64,000 bases of DNA. Source: Desulfosporosinus sp. Sb-LF. Lineage in GTDB: Bacteria; Bacillota; Desulfitobacteriia; Desulfitobacteriales; Desulfitobacteriaceae. A program made the position numbers and the translations under genes. The stretch is taken from positions 62,001 to 126,000 of the forward strand of contig NZ_SPQR01000005.1 in assembly GCF_004766055.1 (NCBI RefSeq). Reading direction: 5' to 3'. Below, one piece after another: positions 20,863 through 50,231 of the stretch (position 1 is the stretch's first letter; each line of letters starts with the position of its first letter). The notes beneath the pieces were generated by a model, which saw nothing but the letters and a program-made list of their open reading frames with translations, did not search any database and was not told where the DNA came from.

Positions 20863-20941
20863 TGACAATCGTTATTTTTAGAATGCATGATCTGTAAGCA
20901 TTCGCGGAAGACTAAACTTACCATTTAAGGAGGTGTCTTTA

Positions 20942-21439
20942 ATGCCGATTCAACTCAGCCAAAAAGAAACCATGTTTTTACAAGATCTCAAACAACACGA
21001 ACAACACTGCGTCCAGAAATACAACAAATACTCCAACGAAGCACAAGATCCTCAGCTTAAACAACTCTTTCAGACCCATGCCTCTCATGAACAGCAACAT
21101 TTTAATACCATCACTCAGATCTTAAGCGGACAGACTCCGAACATGAACCAAGGGCAAGGACAACAGGGGCAGGGTCAACAACAAAGCCCAGCCATGCAAT
21201 CGGGGCAAGGAAGTGGAATGCAGGCACAAGGTGCCGCATTCAATCAGAACGATGCAGAATTAGCCAATGATATGCTCTCGACGGAGAAATATATCTCAAG
21301 CACCTATGATACGGCAATCTTTGAATTCCAGGATAAAAATGTACGTCAAGCTTTAAACCACATTCAGAAAGAAGAGCAAGAACATGGAGAAGACCTCTTC
21401 AACTATATGAAATCTCATGGCATGTACAACGTTCAGTAG
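20942..21439 (+). CDS. cotF: CotF-like spore coat protein
   Basis: Ferritin-like helical protein of 165 residues of the CotF/YhcQ spore coat family: LSQKETMFLQDLKQHEQHC, then ASHEQQHFNTI, a Gln/Gly-rich linker (about 65-95) and a second helical half with LSTEKYISSTYDTAIFEF and KEEQEHGEDLF. ATG 20942 follows a near-ideal TAAGGAGGTG. It lies just upstream of the SpoVA-type operon, and a terminator at 21475-21515 separates them. Expected in the outer spore layers of the mother cell. Confidence 0.85.
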   Translation: MPIQLSQKETMFLQDLKQHEQHCVQKYNKYSNEAQDPQLKQLFQTHASHEQQHFNTITQILSGQTPNMNQGQGQQGQGQQQSPAMQSGQGSGMQAQGAAFNQNDAELANDMLSTEKYISSTYDTAIFEFQDKNVRQALNHIQKEEQEHGEDLFNYMKSHGMYNVQ

Positions 21440-21474
21440 CACCTATACCACATACATTGCGCGGTCTTTTAAAT

Positions 21475-21515
21475 AAGAGGGTTAAGAGTTTTATTTAAAG
21501 CTTTTAACCCTCTTT
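21475..21515 (+). terminator. Terminator after cotF-like gene
   Basis: AAGAGGGTTAAGAG and CTTTTAACCCTCTT pair around an AT-rich loop and are followed by TT. It isolates the coat gene from the operon that follows. Confidence 0.75.
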
Positions 21516-21598
21516 GGAGATAGAAAAAGGCCTATAGTTCAGGCTATCGAGGATTAATTTACCAGCTTATTAAGAGAGTCAATAGATTTCTATAAAGC

Positions 21599-21605
21599 CA
21601 TACTA
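21599..21605 (+). promoter_or_regulatory. Possible sigma-G type -10 element
   Basis: CATACTA matches the forespore sigma-G -10 consensus and lies 28 bases before the first ATG of the SpoVA-type operon. A matching -35 is weak (sequence near 21577-21584). Forespore expression would fit spoVA genes, which are sigma-G controlled in Bacillus. Confidence 0.45.
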
Positions 21606-21632
21606 AAGTTTGTGACAATGGAGGTTGATACT

Positions 21633-21839
21633 ATGACGGTTGGTTCTCAAGTTAAACAAACTTTAGCGAGTTTGAAGGGGGCCCGTGGAACCTTAAGAGT
21701 GTATAGTACTCAAACAAGAGATAAAGAAACTAGGTCTATATTTAAATACGCACTCAAAGAAACCAGTTCAATTATTGAAGATCTAGAAAACAGATTACAG
21801 ACACTCGAATTTGAAGAACCCCAGTATAAAGGGAATTAA
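21633..21839 (+). CDS. DUF1657 protein 1
   Basis: Small helical protein of 68 residues: MTVGSQVKQTLASLKGARG at the start and LENRLQTLEFEEPQYKGN at the end, closely parallel to the second DUF1657 protein at 24616. ATG 21633 follows GGAGGTTG; an in-frame GTG at 21612 is less likely. DUF1657 genes are characteristic companions of SpoVA cassettes with YetF. Function unknown. Confidence 0.85.
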   Translation: MTVGSQVKQTLASLKGARGTLRVYSTQTRDKETRSIFKYALKETSSIIEDLENRLQTLEFEEPQYKGN

Positions 21840-21854
21840 AAGGTAGGTATACAT

Positions 21855-22712
21855 ATGCAGGAATGGGCGCAGGTACTTTTAAAATCAATCGCTTTGTTTT
21901 TTTTAGTATGGGCAGCTATCAGGCTAATGGGCAAACGAAATATGAGCCAGATTAATCCCTTCAATTTTATAAGTTATATCGTTATCGCCATAGTGGCGTC
22001 TTTAATGTCTATAAACCTCATTAATCTATTCTCTGGTTTTATCGCACTACTGGTCTGGGTAGCTTTACCCATCGCCCTGGATTATCTCTCAATCAAGAGT
22101 AAGATAATGCACGAGTTAATCCATGGGAAAGAAGCCGTGTTAATCAAGCATGGCAAGATTATGGAAGATAATCTTATGAGTGTACGAATGACTGGTGAGG
22201 ACCTTTTAGCTCAACTTCGTTCTAGGAACGCATTCAACATGGCCGATGTAGAATTCGCAGTGATGGAGACCAACGGCATCATCAATCCGTACTTAAAGTC
22301 AGACAAAAAGCCCGTTACCCCACACGACCTTGGAACTAAAGTTGCTCCACAAGCTGAACCACAAACTATAGCCCTTGATGGAAATATGTTAGAAGAGCCC
22401 CTGGCCTCTTTAGGACTTAACCCGCAGTGGTTAAGTACCGAACTCGATAAGATAGGAGTTTCCCTTGAGAACGTATTTCTCGGTCAGGTCGACTCATCAG
22501 GAGAATTATATCTTGACCTCTTCGACGATGTCGTTCAAATCCCTCAACCCAAGGTCAAGGAAATGCTCTATGCTATCCTTGAAAAGAGCCAGGCTGACTT
22601 TGTAACGTTTGCTCTGCAAACTGAGGATACTAAAGCAAAAGCGATGTTTTCTAAAAACTCTCGAAAACTTGAAGATCTCCTGAACAAATTACGTCCTTAC
22701 TTATTGCATTAA
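21855..22712 (+). CDS. DUF421 (YetF/YdfR-like) membrane protein
   Basis: Protein of 285 residues with three N-terminal membrane helices (ALFFLVWAAIRLMGKRNMSQ, then two more up to about residue 80) and a soluble DUF421 region with VRMTGEDLLAQLRSRNAFNM and DVEFAVMETNGIINPYLKS. A C-terminal extension (about 180-285) goes beyond the core YetF fold. YetF-like proteins coded in mobile spoVA operons of Bacillus are linked to spore heat resistance. It lies 15 bases after DUF1657 and 11 bases before spoVAC. Confidence 0.85.
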   Translation: MQEWAQVLLKSIALFFLVWAAIRLMGKRNMSQINPFNFISYIVIAIVASLMSINLINLFSGFIALLVWVALPIALDYLSIKSKIMHELIHGKEAVLIKHGKIMEDNLMSVRMTGEDLLAQLRSRNAFNMADVEFAVMETNGIINPYLKSDKKPVTPHDLGTKVAPQAEPQTIALDGNMLEEPLASLGLNPQWLSTELDKIGVSLENVFLGQVDSSGELYLDLFDDVVQIPQPKVKEMLYAILEKSQADFVTFALQTEDTKAKAMFSKNSRKLEDLLNKLRPYLLH

Positions 22713-22723
22713 GAGGTGCTGTT

Positions 22724-23203
22724 ATGTCCATCAAGAAGAAAAAAAAGCTTTCTCCTACTCAGCAGGAATACCAACAATTTGCTCAAGAAAGAGAGCCAAA
22801 ACGACCGATTGTTTTAAACTGTGTCAAGGCTTTTTTCGTGGGAGGGTTTATTTGTACTCTCGGTCAAGCCATACAAATGTTCTTTGTTAAGTATTTTCAC
22901 CTTTCTCAAGAAAGTGCCAGCAATCCTACAGTGGCAGTGGTCATTATCATAACTGTCTTATTAACAGGTTTCGGAGTATTTGACCATATTGCCCAGTTTG
23001 CCGGAGCAGGTACCGTTATTCCAATTACCGGCTTTGCCAATACCATCGCTTCAGCTGCCATTGAACACCAAACTGAAGGTTATGTTCTGGGCGTCGGGGG
23101 AAATATGTTTAAACTCGCAGGCCCGGTAATCGTTTTTGGTGTCTTCTCTGCCTTTGTCGTTTCCCTAGTCGTTATAAGTTTAAGAGCATTGGGTGTGATA
23201 TAA
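22724..23203 (+). CDS. spoVAC: Stage V sporulation protein AC
   Basis: Inner spore membrane channel subunit of 159 residues involved in dipicolinic acid uptake and release. A Lys-rich start is followed by four hydrophobic helices. Family motifs are AFFVGGFICTLGQAIQ, GFGVFDHIAQFAGAGT and VIPITGFANTIASAAIEH. SpoVAC is the mechanosensitive-like component in Bacillus. The gene touches spoVAD without a gap. Paralogous to SpoVAE at 24226. Confidence 0.93.
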   Translation: MSIKKKKKLSPTQQEYQQFAQEREPKRPIVLNCVKAFFVGGFICTLGQAIQMFFVKYFHLSQESASNPTVAVVIIITVLLTGFGVFDHIAQFAGAGTVIPITGFANTIASAAIEHQTEGYVLGVGGNMFKLAGPVIVFGVFSAFVVSLVVISLRALGVI

Positions 23204-24208
23204 ATGTTAAAAGGTCATCAGACCTGGGTTTTCGAGACAAAACCCACCATTATCGCTTCAGCTGCAGTAGGGGGACCCTATGAAGCGCAAGGTCTATTAG
23301 CTTCCGATTTCGACCTCCTCCATGGAGATATCCGACTTGGACAAGATAGCTTTGAAAAAGCGGAACAAAAACTGCAAGAACAGGCCTGTGAGATAGCTAT
23401 AAAAAAGGCCAATATGAAAAAGGAAGATGTTCAGTTTTTGCTTAGCGGAGATTTGATCAACCAGATTTTCCCCAGCAGTTTTTCTGCTCGTACTTTGTCC
23501 GTTCCTTTTCTAGGGCTTTATGGTGCTTGTTCTACTTCTATGGAAGGGTTGTCACTGGCCTCCCTTCTTGTCGATAGTAAATTTGCCAAGAATGCTTTAG
23601 TCTGCGTATCCAGCCATAATGCAGCTTCGGAAAAACAGTTCAGGTATCCAACAGAATATGGTTCCCAAAAACCGCCCACAGCCCAATGGACTGTAACGGG
23701 ATCAGGAGCCGCTCTGGTTGCTGATCAGGGAGAAGGTCCAAAAGTAACGGCATCAACTATCGGGCGAGTGATTGATATGGGGCTTTCTGATCCCTTCAAT
23801 ATGGGGGCAGCAATGGCTCCAGCAGCAGTTGATACCCTTGAAGCACATTTTAGAGATTTAGATCGAGATCCCAGTTATTATGATCTGATTGCCACGGGTG
23901 ACCTTGGTAGAGTTGGTCATAGGATTGCAGGCGATTTATTAAAAAAGCATGGTCTTAACATACCCGAAGGGATCTTCACAGATTGCGGGATTTTAATCTA
24001 CAAGGAGGATCAACCTGTCGTTATGGCTGGTGGCAGTGGATGCGGTTGTGCTGCAGTGACGACCTTTGGCCACTTTCTAAATCGCATGCGTAAGGGAGAG
24101 TTAAGAAAGATCCTAGTCATTGCCACAGGCGCCTTACTTTCTCCTATGTCCTACCAGCAGAAAGAAAGTATCCCTTCGATTGCCCATGCAGTATGCATCG
24201 AGATCTAA
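23204..24208 (+). CDS. spoVAD: Stage V sporulation protein AD
   Basis: Thiolase-fold protein of 334 residues that binds dipicolinic acid on the inner spore membrane. Motifs are ASAAVGGPYEAQG, the pseudo-active-site region LGLYGACSTSMEGLSLAS and MGAAMAPAAVDTLEAHF. The ATG immediately follows the spoVAC stop codon, which shows translational coupling. Length is the family norm. Confidence 0.93.
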   Translation: MLKGHQTWVFETKPTIIASAAVGGPYEAQGLLASDFDLLHGDIRLGQDSFEKAEQKLQEQACEIAIKKANMKKEDVQFLLSGDLINQIFPSSFSARTLSVPFLGLYGACSTSMEGLSLASLLVDSKFAKNALVCVSSHNAASEKQFRYPTEYGSQKPPTAQWTVTGSGAALVADQGEGPKVTASTIGRVIDMGLSDPFNMGAAMAPAAVDTLEAHFRDLDRDPSYYDLIATGDLGRVGHRIAGDLLKKHGLNIPEGIFTDCGILIYKEDQPVVMAGGSGCGCAAVTTFGHFLNRMRKGELRKILVIATGALLSPMSYQQKESIPSIAHAVCIEI

Positions 24209-24225
24209 AGGAGCTGTTTATTAGG

Positions 24226-24579
24226 ATGGAGAAATTTTTATGGGCTTTTATAGTGGGCGGTTTGATTTGTGTGATTGGACAGTTAATGCTCGATGGACTA
24301 AAACTAACCCCTGCCCATACGACAAGTACCTTAGTCGTCGTGGGAGCGATTCTTGGAGGATTGGGGCTTTATGATCCACTTGTCAAATTTGCTGGTGCAG
24401 GAGCAACGATACCTATATGCAGTTTTGGCAATTCTTTGGTAAAAGGCGCTTTAAAGGAATTTGATTCTACTGGCCTTATCGGGGTTTTAACCGGTATCTT
24501 TCAGATTACAAGTGCAGGTATATCTGCTGCGATCATCTTTGGCTTCCTTGGGGCACTCGTATTTAAACCCAAAGGTTAA
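24226..24579 (+). CDS. spoVAE: Stage V sporulation protein AE (AEb type)
   Basis: Membrane protein of 117 residues: MEKFLWAFIVGGLICVIGQL, then GGLGLYDPLVKFAGAGATI and PICSFGNSLVKGALKE, the SpoVAEb pattern and a shorter relative of SpoVAC. I chose ATG 24226 because it gives the standard N-terminus and follows AAAGGAG; the frame is open further upstream into spoVAD. Completes the AC-AD-AEb core seen in spoVA cassettes that lack AA, AB and AF. Confidence 0.9.
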   Translation: MEKFLWAFIVGGLICVIGQLMLDGLKLTPAHTTSTLVVVGAILGGLGLYDPLVKFAGAGATIPICSFGNSLVKGALKEFDSTGLIGVLTGIFQITSAGISAAIIFGFLGALVFKPKG

Positions 24580-24615
24580 GTCACTTGAGACTCTATGAAG
24601 GAGGTGAAAAAAGAC

Positions 24616-24819
24616 ATGACCGTTGGAACACAAATGCAACAAGCCATCGCTACAATTCAAAGTGCAGCTGCTACTATGAAGACATTTTCTTTAGAAACTC
24701 AGGACCAACAAGCTAAGAAAACCTTTGAGCAACTCGCCCAAACCTTTGATTCAGCTCTTACTGAGTTAAAAGGAAGAGAGCAGTACATTAAGCAACAGGA
24801 ACCTCAATACAAACAATAA
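24616..24819 (+). CDS. DUF1657 protein 2
   Basis: Protein of 67 residues (MTVGTQMQQAIATIQSAAA ... QYIKQQEPQYKQ), a paralogue of the protein at 21633. ATG 24616 follows GGAGGTGA. The presence of DUF1657 at both ends of the SpoVAC-AD-AEb unit with YetF reproduces the arrangement of the spoVA-2mob operon of heat-resistant Bacillus. Function unknown. Confidence 0.85.
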   Translation: MTVGTQMQQAIATIQSAAATMKTFSLETQDQQAKKTFEQLAQTFDSALTELKGREQYIKQQEPQYKQ

Positions 24820-25453: not shown

Positions 25454-25587
25454 CTCTTTATTTATACGAATCATTTCACGAGGAATATTTAGTCATATTA
25501 TACCTAATGTGGAACATAAATCCAATTGGTGCATATCGTGTATTATCCACAAAATGATTCTCATATTTATATAAAGGGGGCTTGCCC

Positions 25588-26127
25588 ATGACATCGTTAA
25601 AGGGGCAGCGGGGTTATTACCCAAGTCAGCAGAACAGATTTTCTCCCATTCCGCGACAGGGAACGAACCCTATTCAACAGCAAATTCCTACACCGGTTTC
25701 TCAACCAATAGCTCAGCCTATGGTTCAACCCCTAGTTCAACCTATCACTCAACCTATCACTCAACCTATCACTCAACCTATCACTCAACCTCCGTCAGTC
25801 CAATCTGCATCTCCTGTTCAAAAACCCATTCTATCTTCTCCCCAACAGCCACCCTCTTCCACTACAGCAGGGTCTACTAACCTCTGGCAACAGCAAGCTG
25901 GAGTTCTTATAAAGCAATACGGCCCTTCTCTCATGAAACAATTTGGACCTCCTCTGGCACGCAAAATGGGCCTACCCATCGCCCAACGCTTTGGTCCTCC
26001 TCTGGCACGCAGCGTGGGAGCTCCTCTCGTACGGCGTGTAGGCCTTCCCCTTCTACGCAGAGTATTCCTGCCTATGGCTAAACGCGCGGGATTTGCACTC
26101 ATTCGAAGAATAGGGCTTCCATTTTAG
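25588..26127 (+). CDS. Octad-repeat cationic protein, unknown
   Basis: Protein of 179 residues of no recognised family. Residues 1-35 are polar. About residues 39-67 are degenerate QPxx repeats ending in four identical PITQ units, encoded by a perfect 12-bp tandem repeat. A Pro/Ser/Gln linker follows. Residues 112-175 tile into eight consecutive octads of the pattern G-x-P-L-x-x-R-h (for example GPPLARSV, GAPLVRRV, GLPLLRRV), closed by GLPF. The octad block is strongly basic and amphipathic. ATG 25588 follows AAAGGGGG. A CATATTATA sequence at 25493 resembles a sporulation sigma-E/K -10 element. With its sporulation neighbours, a coat or spore-membrane protein is a guess. Confidence 0.75.
   Translation: MTSLKGQRGYYPSQQNRFSPIPRQGTNPIQQQIPTPVSQPIAQPMVQPLVQPITQPITQPITQPITQPPSVQSASPVQKPILSSPQQPPSSTTAGSTNLWQQQAGVLIKQYGPSLMKQFGPPLARKMGLPIAQRFGPPLARSVGAPLVRRVGLPLLRRVFLPMAKRAGFALIRRIGLPF
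25741..25788 (+). repeat. Four perfect 12-bp tandem repeats
   Basis: CCTATCACTCAA is repeated four times inside the octad-repeat protein gene and encodes PITQ each time. Degenerate copies extend upstream to about 25702. Such arrays can change copy number by slippage without breaking the frame. Confidence 0.95.
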
Positions 26128-26136
26128 GATATAAAG

Positions 26137-26176
26137 AAACAGGCTGTTGACAAGTTTTTATGGTCAACAGCCTGTT
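26137..26176. terminator. Hairpin between convergent genes
   Basis: AACAGGCTGTTGAC and GTCAACAGCCTGTT form a perfect 14-bp stem. On the minus strand it is followed by TCTTTAT, so it probably terminates the universal stress protein gene as well as the octad-repeat gene. Confidence 0.75.
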
Positions 26177-47420: not shown

Positions 47421-50231
47421 ATGCTATGGGATCATACATCCATTAGGCAACGTCTTTTAGGAATTCTAGCGATTCAGACTTTAGTTTTTCTCATCTTTGG
47501 CATGATTGCTACCAATAATGTGATACGGTTGAATGACCTCACCCGCTCGATTTATGAGCACCCACTCGTTGCCTCCAATGCCGCCGTCCAGGCCCATCTT
47601 GAAGAGGTTGAAATCCGACTAGCCATGAGGAAGGCACTACAGGTAGACAGTCTTAGCCTCCGTGTAGACCTGATTGTGCAGATCAACGATCACAACACCT
47701 CTATCCGCCGTAATTTGGATCTAATCCGCGATAATATACTCGATCAGGACGGACTTCGACTAGAACTAGAAACCCGAATCTTACTAGACGGGTGGCAACC
47801 CCTGCAGACAGAATTCATCAGGCTTTTAGACAACGGCAACCTTAATGAAGCCACCAAGTTCCTTAACAACGAAATATCTCCGTGTTCTCTCAAATTGAAT
47901 AGCAATCTAACCCGTCTTAACCAAATTGCCCGTGCTGAGGCTGACCGGCAGATCGCCGAAGCGAACTCAACTTCCGGCAAGGTTCTCCATCTTCTCACAA
48001 TGTCTCTTGCGATAGCACTGGGACTTTCTCTGGCTTTGACGTTTATGGTTACCCGCAGCATCCAGCAAGCCATTGTTTCCCTTAAAGAGGTGATGGCTAG
48101 CATCGTCCACAGCGGACATCTGCAAAAGGCAAAGGTGACAGGCAACCATGAATTCGCGGAAATGAAAAAAGACTTTAACATTCTAATCGAAATGCTGGAG
48201 AATGAATTATGGCTACGGGACGGCCAGAGTCGCCTGCGAGTCGCTCTAGCCGGTAATTATAACTTGAACGAACTGGGTAAAATTGCGCTGCAGTTTGTGG
48301 CGACCTATGTTGGAGCTGGAATGGGAGCTCTTTACGTTTACAATCCGGAAACCCAACAGCTCCAACTCCTAAGTTCATTTGCCCCTCATAATAGCACAAT
48401 GTTAATTCAAGAGCATCCGCTAGGCGAAGGGATTATCGGACAAGTCGCCCTGCAAAAGACGCCAATTCTTCTGCGAAATATTACTCGTGACCAAGCCATC
48501 ATCCAAACAGGGACCACGAGTGAACCGCCCCTCAACACCTACACCTTTCCACTCCTCTTCAACCAGCAACTCTACGGTGTGATCGAACTTGCAGCGCATG
48601 AATTAATGGATCAGAACAAGCAAAATTTCTTGAACAGCTCGACGGCCATCCTTGCCTACTACCTTTTGTCCAGTACACAAAAAGACAAAACGGCCCATCT
48701 CCTAGCTCAAGAGCAAGCCAGCAATGAAAAGCTTCACCAGCAAAGCATTGAGTTGGAGGCTTTGAATGCAGAACTTGAGCAAGGGCAACGGCAGCTGGAA
48801 GAGCATTTCAAAGCTTTAGACGAATCAAATATTGAACTGGAAGAGCATGTCCAGGCTCTGAACCAATCCAATACTGAACTTGAAGAACAGCAAAAAATCA
48901 TGGAGCTTCAAGCTCAGGAACTCCGTGCCAATAATGCTCATTTAATCGGGTTACAACTGACCTTGCAGGAAAAAAACCTCCAATTGGAGATGGCCAGCCA
49001 ATACAAATCTGAATTTCTAGCCAATATGTCACATGAACTTCGCACTCCCTTGAATTCCATTATCCTTTTATCCCAGATGCTGGCTCAAAACAAGCAGCAA
49101 AACTTATCGAAAGACGATCAAAAAAAAGCAAGTGTTATTCAGGCTGCCGGTCAAGAGTTGCTTCAGCTTATCAATCATATCCTAGACCTAGCCAAAATCG
49201 AAAGTGGTCGAACAGAGCTGCTAATCGAAACGATGACAACCCAACAATTAATTTCTAATTGCCAAGACAAATTTGAAACGCTCGCCACGGAAAAGGGTCT
49301 ATCCTTTATTCTCCAAGATGACTTAAAGATGTCCTTCACAACTGATTGCGAAAAACTTAATCAAATCCTCACCAATTTACTAGCCAATGCCTTCAAATTC
49401 ACTTCTAAGGGGAAAGTCACGCTGAAAATCACAGCCAGCAACACCCTAGATCTACCTCTGAAAATTTCCATCAGTGATACAGGCATCGGGATTTCCCCCG
49501 ATAAGCAGGAACTTATCTTCGAAAAATTCCTCCAGGTTGATGGATCCATCAGCCGACAGTACGGAGGAACTGGTTTAGGCCTCTCTATCGTCAAGGACCT
49601 AGTTGCCTTATTAAGGGGAAGAATTACCCTACATAGTGCAAAACACCAAGGTAGCACCTTCACTCTCCTGCTGCCAAGATTTCTCGAGACGGCAACCCAA
49701 CCTGGAATGTCTCCACTACCACCTCATCCTCAACCCATACTCATCACGGATAACCAAACCAGCCTTAGTCCCGAGGATCGACCAAATTTTATCCTACGCA
49801 ATGCCAGCACATTCACTCCTATACGACTTGACCAAGACCCAGATCCGATTCTTCAAGGGAAACGCATCCTACTTTGTGACGATGATCTTAAGAACGTCTA
49901 CACCCTTTCCTCTCTTCTAGAAGATCTCGGCTTGGAGGTCCTAGAAGCTTACAACGGACAGGAAGCTATACAAAAACTTGAGGCTAACCCAGATGTGGAT
50001 TTAATTCTAATGGACATCATGATGCCTGTAGTCGATGGTGTTGAAGCAATGCGGAGAATTTGCAGGGATTCTCGTTTCCGGCATATTCCAATTATCGTTC
50101 TAACAGCCAAGGCCATGCTTGGAGATAAAGAACAATTCATTGCCGCTGGGGCCAAAGGTTATGTTTCTAAGCCCATCGATTATGCGGTCTTGACGAACCT
50201 TATCAAAGACTGGCTGAAAGAAGAACAATAA
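47421..50231 (+). CDS. Large membrane hybrid histidine kinase (TM-HAMP-GAF-coil-HisKA-HATPase-REC)
   Basis: Protein of about 936 residues. Membrane helix at 12-32, a helical-bundle sensor region to about 190, helix 2 (LHLLTMSLAIALGLSLALTF), HAMP, a GAF domain (about 275-420), a long coiled coil of Glu/Gln/Leu heptads (440-520), HisKA ([19 protein letters not shown]), HATPase (LANAFKFTSKG, ISDTGIGISPDKQE, GTGLGLSIVKDLV) and a receiver (LLCDDDLKN, LILMDIMMPVVDG, ISKP-like SKPIDY). The phosphoryl group would go His to Asp internally and then to an Hpt, possibly the CheA-like protein at 54063. AAAGGAG is 13 bases before the ATG, so the start is not certain. Confidence 0.88.
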   Translation: MLWDHTSIRQRLLGILAIQTLVFLIFGMIATNNVIRLNDLTRSIYEHPLVASNAAVQAHLEEVEIRLAMRKALQVDSLSLRVDLIVQINDHNTSIRRNLDLIRDNILDQDGLRLELETRILLDGWQPLQTEFIRLLDNGNLNEATKFLNNEISPCSLKLNSNLTRLNQIARAEADRQIAEANSTSGKVLHLLTMSLAIALGLSLALTFMVTRSIQQAIVSLKEVMASIVHSGHLQKAKVTGNHEFAEMKKDFNILIEMLENELWLRDGQSRLRVALAGNYNLNELGKIALQFVATYVGAGMGALYVYNPETQQLQLLSSFAPHNSTMLIQEHPLGEGIIGQVALQKTPILLRNITRDQAIIQTGTTSEPPLNTYTFPLLFNQQLYGVIELAAHELMDQNKQNFLNSSTAILAYYLLSSTQKDKTAHLLAQEQASNEKLHQQSIELEALNAELEQGQRQLEEHFKALDESNIELEEHVQALNQSNTELEEQQKIMELQAQELRANNAHLIGLQLTLQEKNLQLEMASQYKSEFLANMSHELRTPLNSIILLSQMLAQNKQQNLSKDDQKKASVIQAAGQELLQLINHILDLAKIESGRTELLIETMTTQQLISNCQDKFETLATEKGLSFILQDDLKMSFTTDCEKLNQILTNLLANAFKFTSKGKVTLKITASNTLDLPLKISISDTGIGISPDKQELIFEKFLQVDGSISRQYGGTGLGLSIVKDLVALLRGRITLHSAKHQGSTFTLLLPRFLETATQPGMSPLPPHPQPILITDNQTSLSPEDRPNFILRNASTFTPIRLDQDPDPILQGKRILLCDDDLKNVYTLSSLLEDLGLEVLEAYNGQEAIQKLEANPDVDLILMDIMMPVVDGVEAMRRICRDSRFRHIPIIVLTAKAMLGDKEQFIAAGAKGYVSKPIDYAVLTNLIKDWLKEEQ

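Follow-up and report, generated by a model that had tools for sequence, protein, structure and literature searches.

A conserved octad-repeat protein family in the order of Desulfosporosinus with a predicted late sporulation promoter

SpoVM, at the surface of the developing Bacillus spore, is a 26-aa amphipathic, curvature-sensing helix with a functionally important proline, Pro9 (PMC4307972). The octad-repeat protein described here is predicted to share these general features: an amphipathic helix with a charged face, proline, and a position at the developing spore surface. However, SpoVM is a single short helix, whereas the present protein has 179 residues, in which eight tandem octads (~78 residues) adjoin a linker predicted to be disordered, and thus falls outside the SpoVM type. 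The likeness would be functional, and no sequence relation is claimed.

YqfQ/VrrA (PF14181), a protein of spore-formers, resembles the octad protein in its low-complexity, Gln/Pro-rich part, and in VrrA, too, a 12-bp repeat is a source of variation. The PF14181 profile, which scored positive on the Bacillus subtilis genome used as a control, had no match over its cut-off (27 bits) in our genome and 20 relatives, where the best score was 12.5 bits at another locus. Against the octad protein itself there was no match at E<=10, and against the octad members none at E<=1. The third comparison is with CotG and CotB, which are late mother-cell, repetitive, low-complexity proteins of the spore coat. 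CotB has serine-rich repeats (PMC7821199). By their descriptions, these serine-rich phosphorylated repeats are set apart from octads of the Gly-Pro-Leu-Ala-Arg-Lys-Val kind. For anaerobic sulfate reducers and dehalogenating bacteria, little is known about the proteins of the spore surface. A spore surface component, as we suppose the octad protein to be, would be an already known kind of protein, and the octad mechanism set out below is offered as a proposal.

The window, a stretch of 64,000 nucleotides from Desulfosporosinus sp. Sb-LF, contains the octad gene on the + strand at 25588-26127, as the original prediction had it. The ATG at 25588 is the start kept in relatives and lies 6 nt inside a longer ORF that begins with TTG. 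It is preceded by an RBS region, AAGGGGG (25573-25579, + strand), and most members of the genus keep it in the form (A)AAGGGGGCTTGCCC-ATG. The encoded protein has no Asp or Glu at all and a pI of ~12. Comparison of the window gene with 16 relatives gave dN values of 0.10-0.23 against dS values of 0.58-2.52 in the octads, indicating purifying selection. Since dS greatly exceeds dN and matches are encoded in 51 of the 61 genomes searched, we conclude that the ORF is a real gene. An antisense ORF (25818-26102, - strand) was set aside because the purifying selection is seen in the + frame. The octad gene is probably transcribed alone, and a perfect 14-bp inverted repeat (26138-26176) between it and a convergent Usp gene is a probable terminator shared by both.

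The weakest few of the 51 matches cover the linker only, and the 18 named members retrieved all come from Desulfosporosinus. A profile built on the octads found matches in two families of the order, f1 and f3, and none in f2 or in f4, a sister family of the same class. Across 399 genomes of the phylum, no credible homologue was found outside the order. Only three weak matches appeared there, and each was rejected: one region is a low-complexity frame (L083), one a glycosyltransferase-like frame (L085), and one match is interrupted by three stops (L084). The protein matched no Pfam, NCBIfam or PHROGs family (Pfam and NCBIfam at their curated cut-offs) and no plasmid record, and a literature search on octad repeats in spores and on the octad gene returned nothing pertinent. 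The octad proteins are an uncatalogued conserved family, found here in a single order. The original prediction, which knew of no family with this pattern and staked its case on conservation of the octads in relatives, is upheld on both counts.

The N-terminal half of the protein begins with a cap, MxSLMGQRGYxPxQxNRFSPIQRQ (25588-25662, + strand), which is conserved in the genus and predicted to be disordered. The SLMGQRGY within it recalls SLFGRRRQNY at the C-termini of second-family proteins, a resemblance too short to call. A Pro/Gln-rich linker follows (25663-25881, + strand), also predicted to be disordered and of variable length among relatives. Within it lie the perfect 12-bp tandem repeats already reported for the Gln/Pro region (25737-25791, + strand; 4.6 copies, encoding QPIT repeats). 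These are confirmed in this gene and are not a family feature: the linkers of relatives differ in length and sequence and conserve no 12-bp repeat, which indicates a recent local expansion in this genome. The lead-in to the octads, LWQQQAGVLIKQ (25882-25917, + strand), is again highly conserved in the genus.

The octad domain (25918-26124, + strand) starts at residue 111. Its first four units read YGPSLMKQ, FGPPLARK, MGLPIAQR and FGPPLARS, and the next four VGAPLVRR, VGLPLLRR, VFLPMAKR and AGFALIRR, followed by the tail IGLPF. Residue by residue, this bears out the eight tandem units plus GLPF first noticed at the C-terminus. The strict G-x-P-L-x-x-R-h regularity stands in part. None of 20,000 composition shuffles produced a chain of eight prolines spaced eight residues apart (the longest had 7). 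The motif is degenerate in the G-x-P frame, with G and P both present in 5/8 units, G alone missing from one and P alone from two. Across members the profile of the unit reads hydrophobic-G-(P/L/I)-P-(L/I/V)-A-(R/K)-(K/R), and an idealised unit is Gly-x-Pro-Leu-Ala-Arg-Lys-Val. The octads are not DNA repeats, with nucleotide identity between units averaging 0.50. The domain is basic and amphipathic, as had been claimed: its net charge is ~+13 over 69 residues, and its hydrophobic moment has its maximum at 90 degrees per residue and is coherent over the whole domain, so that hydrophobic positions return every four residues. No transmembrane segment was found, the 19-residue Kyte-Doolittle average staying at or below 0.97 where a run of ~19 hydrophobic residues was looked for.

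Most members in the genus have eight octads. One member of the genus (L026) lacks exactly one unit, and several further members are short by exactly one 8-residue block, which indicates that units are gained and lost as exact blocks of eight residues. The octads are C-terminal in family f1 and N-terminal in f3, where a low-complexity tail comes after them, and in one genus the protein, 77 residues long (L031), consists of octads alone. This exchange of position and the octad-only form identify the octads as the conserved core and the Pro/Gln part as a variable linker; the octad domain has been retained while the linker shifts between the protein ends. One f3 genome, G046 of genus g13, has two divergent octad paralogues (L038 and L048).

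Structure prediction, which had been suggested as a check, returned a long, moderately confident helix after a half without order. In the AlphaFold model of the full protein the helix spans residues 99-175 (block mean pLDDT 65-83) and the N-terminal half is disordered (mostly pLDDT 40-55), while the octads modelled alone give long helices (mean pLDDT 64.2, pTM 0.25); the alignment comprised close relatives only, and confidence is moderate to low. Foldseek found no fold match in the PDB, and a PDB sequence search found no significant match. The designed helical filament DHF119 (PDB 6e9z) shows a chance-level resemblance between Leu/Ala/Lys/Arg helices (E 0.32, not significant).

Upstream of the gene we identified a predicted sigma-K-type promoter (25513-25542, + strand) with a -35 element (GG)AACA, a gap of N14 and a -10 element GCATATCGTGTA, whose CATA begins 56 nt before the ATG. 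The Bacillus sigma-K consensus is KCACM for the -35 and GCATANNNTA for the -10 element (PMC3416734), with 14-16 nt between them (PMC517825). The window site agrees at 4/5 bases of the -35 (GAACA), and its -10, GCATATCGTG, misses only the last specified base. The octad gene thus has a promoter of the sigma-K regulon type, for which a KCACM-like -35, a gap of 14-16 nt and a GCATANNNTA -10 were looked for. The pattern [AC]AC[ACT]-N14-16-CATA is present in 24/26 octad genes of the genus (1.12 expected and at most 4 found in 100 shuffles), in 3/6 other octad genes of the same family (0.20 expected, maximum 2) and in 16/16 of those in f3 (0.99 expected, maximum 3). It sits ~55 nt upstream of the start, at a similar distance in both families. 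The window promoter is the sole exact match to its own pattern in its genome.

As a positive control we used dpaA, a sigma-K gene in Bacillus, which has the pattern near -70 in all 11 of the 11 genomes compared, drawn from the same set. Another presumed late gene, yabG, has it in only 2/11, so the pattern is not universal among late genes. Because its spacing is similar, sigma-E stays an alternative for the sigma factor that would read this promoter; sigma-K is favoured because the -35 has AC and not ATA. Late mother-cell timing of the octad gene is thus a prediction well supported by the promoter sequences.

One Desulfosporosinus genome (G001) has three dpaA copies, L191, L195 and a third. 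In the genome studied here, promoters similar to that of the octad gene (GCATATTATGTA) precede genes for tiny Gly/Cys-rich membrane peptides at three loci (L149, C1:292745; L163, C8:260866; L174, C10:5299), which we count in favour of the leading reading given below. At two of the loci another peptide ORF of similar kind follows directly. By eye the peptides look like YjcZ/SscA-type sporulation peptides; they had no Pfam or NCBIfam match.

The phylogenetic distribution also bears on sporulation. In genus g15 neither the octad gene nor spoIVA was found in any of the four genomes, and this co-absence gives weak support, since it is probably a single loss event. In f3, octads and spoIVA occur together in 16 genomes, octads without a detected spoIVA in one (G055), spoIVA only in one (G044) and neither in four. 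G055 stands against the link, as does a genome of the same genus as the window (G025, 94% complete), which has spoIVA and no octad match. The octad gene is also missing from some spore-formers of this class, namely in f2 and f4, and we conclude that it is accessory and dispensable for sporulation in general. The best explanation of these results is that the octad protein is a lineage-specific late sporulation protein of the Desulfosporosinus order.

Our leading reading, which we put at about an even chance, is that this late mother-cell protein covers part of the developing spore, its outer forespore membrane or basal coat, with a cationic helix. In the mother cell, RNA polymerase of the sigma-K type would transcribe the gene, and the octad domain would fold, probably upon surface contact, into a cationic amphipathic helix of ~78 residues with Pro about every eight residues. 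Its Leu/Val/Ile face and many Arg/Lys residues would hold the helix lengthwise against the basal coat or against the outer forespore membrane, on the side of the mother cell, while the disordered Pro/Gln segment would project into the coat and touch other coat proteins. This site is suggested because a cationic amphipathic rod and late mother-cell expression both fit it; binding to membrane or coat and a structural role are what we infer. As a counterpoint, an unbroken helix seldom has Pro at such eight-residue intervals. Furthermore, a 4-residue hydrophobic stripe would wind round an ordinary alpha helix; to keep it on one side, the prolines would have to under-wind or bend the helix. A bolder and rather doubtful extension is that the octad is a new surface-binding repeat, in which Gly-x-Pro under-winds the helix to 4.0 residues per turn and so yields a straight amphipathic rod, its length set by the number of units, that serves as a spore-membrane scaffold or ruler in the order. 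The octads give an idea of how Pro-containing units could form an amphipathic rod, and the family is uncatalogued and order-specific, has a clear promoter, and has a repeat simple enough for peptide synthesis.

The most serious competitor, clearly less probable than the helix on the membrane or basal coat, is a late mother-cell cross-linker or matrix protein of the coat, whose octads would self-assemble or bind acidic coat proteins and make no membrane contact. The promoter evidence fits it equally, the number of units differs between members in the manner of structural proteins, and the linker is of low complexity in a protein devoid of acidic residues. However, the hydrophobic period of 4.0 residues departs from the 3.5 or 3.67 of classical coiled coils.

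An unlikely reading, which for DNA was offered by the original prediction, is a nucleic-acid-binding protein whose basic octads would wrap RNA or DNA, such as the spore chromosome or the DNA of the mother cell. The strong positive charge and the lack of Asp and Glu would suit a nucleic-acid binder, but the promoter is of a mother-cell and not a forespore type. Moreover, the octads have a hydrophobic character (GRAVY +0.27) and keep Leu and Val/Ile at set positions, and outside the genus ~10% of the basic positions are occupied by Glu. Binding to membrane or coat, as we infer it and as the original prediction also proposed, fits better than binding to DNA.

Host-defence peptides are cationic and amphipathic with Pro/Gly hinges, and the octads are alike in general character. 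Together with the predicted late expression, this would be consistent with a membrane-active peptide set free at mother-cell lysis, antimicrobial or assisting lysis. We consider this quite improbable, as the 179-aa protein has no hydrophobic N-terminal signal, no immunity gene was recognised adjoining it, and the neighbours vary.

Least probable, by a little, is that the gene encodes a vegetative or stress protein with a fortuitous promoter match: genes for universal stress protein and ferritin are often near it in the genus, but two families keep the -35/-10 pair, about equally far from the start codon, and the neighbours differ in other families.

The original prediction had linked the gene to sporulation through its sporulation and stress neighbours. 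The link is supported by the conserved sigma-K-type promoter and the spoIVA co-absence in one genus, and not by the neighbours. RidA, Usp and ferritin genes are indeed frequent near the octad gene in the genus; elsewhere the neighbours are, for example, NrdR/NrdD-like or MetH-like (by eye). The SpoVA cassette is not beside the octad gene in the other genomes compared, and was rejected as a functional partner for want of synteny. In the window this cassette (20933-24819) encodes Coat F-like, DUF1657, DUF421 (with a fused DUF1657), SpoVAC-like, SpoVAD-like, SpoVAE and DUF1657 proteins, SpoVAC and SpoVAD being assigned by eye, and we take it to resemble the mobile spoVA2 operons of Bacillus. The window also contains a 42-bp tandem repeat of 2.2 copies, possibly coding, at 48795-48886.
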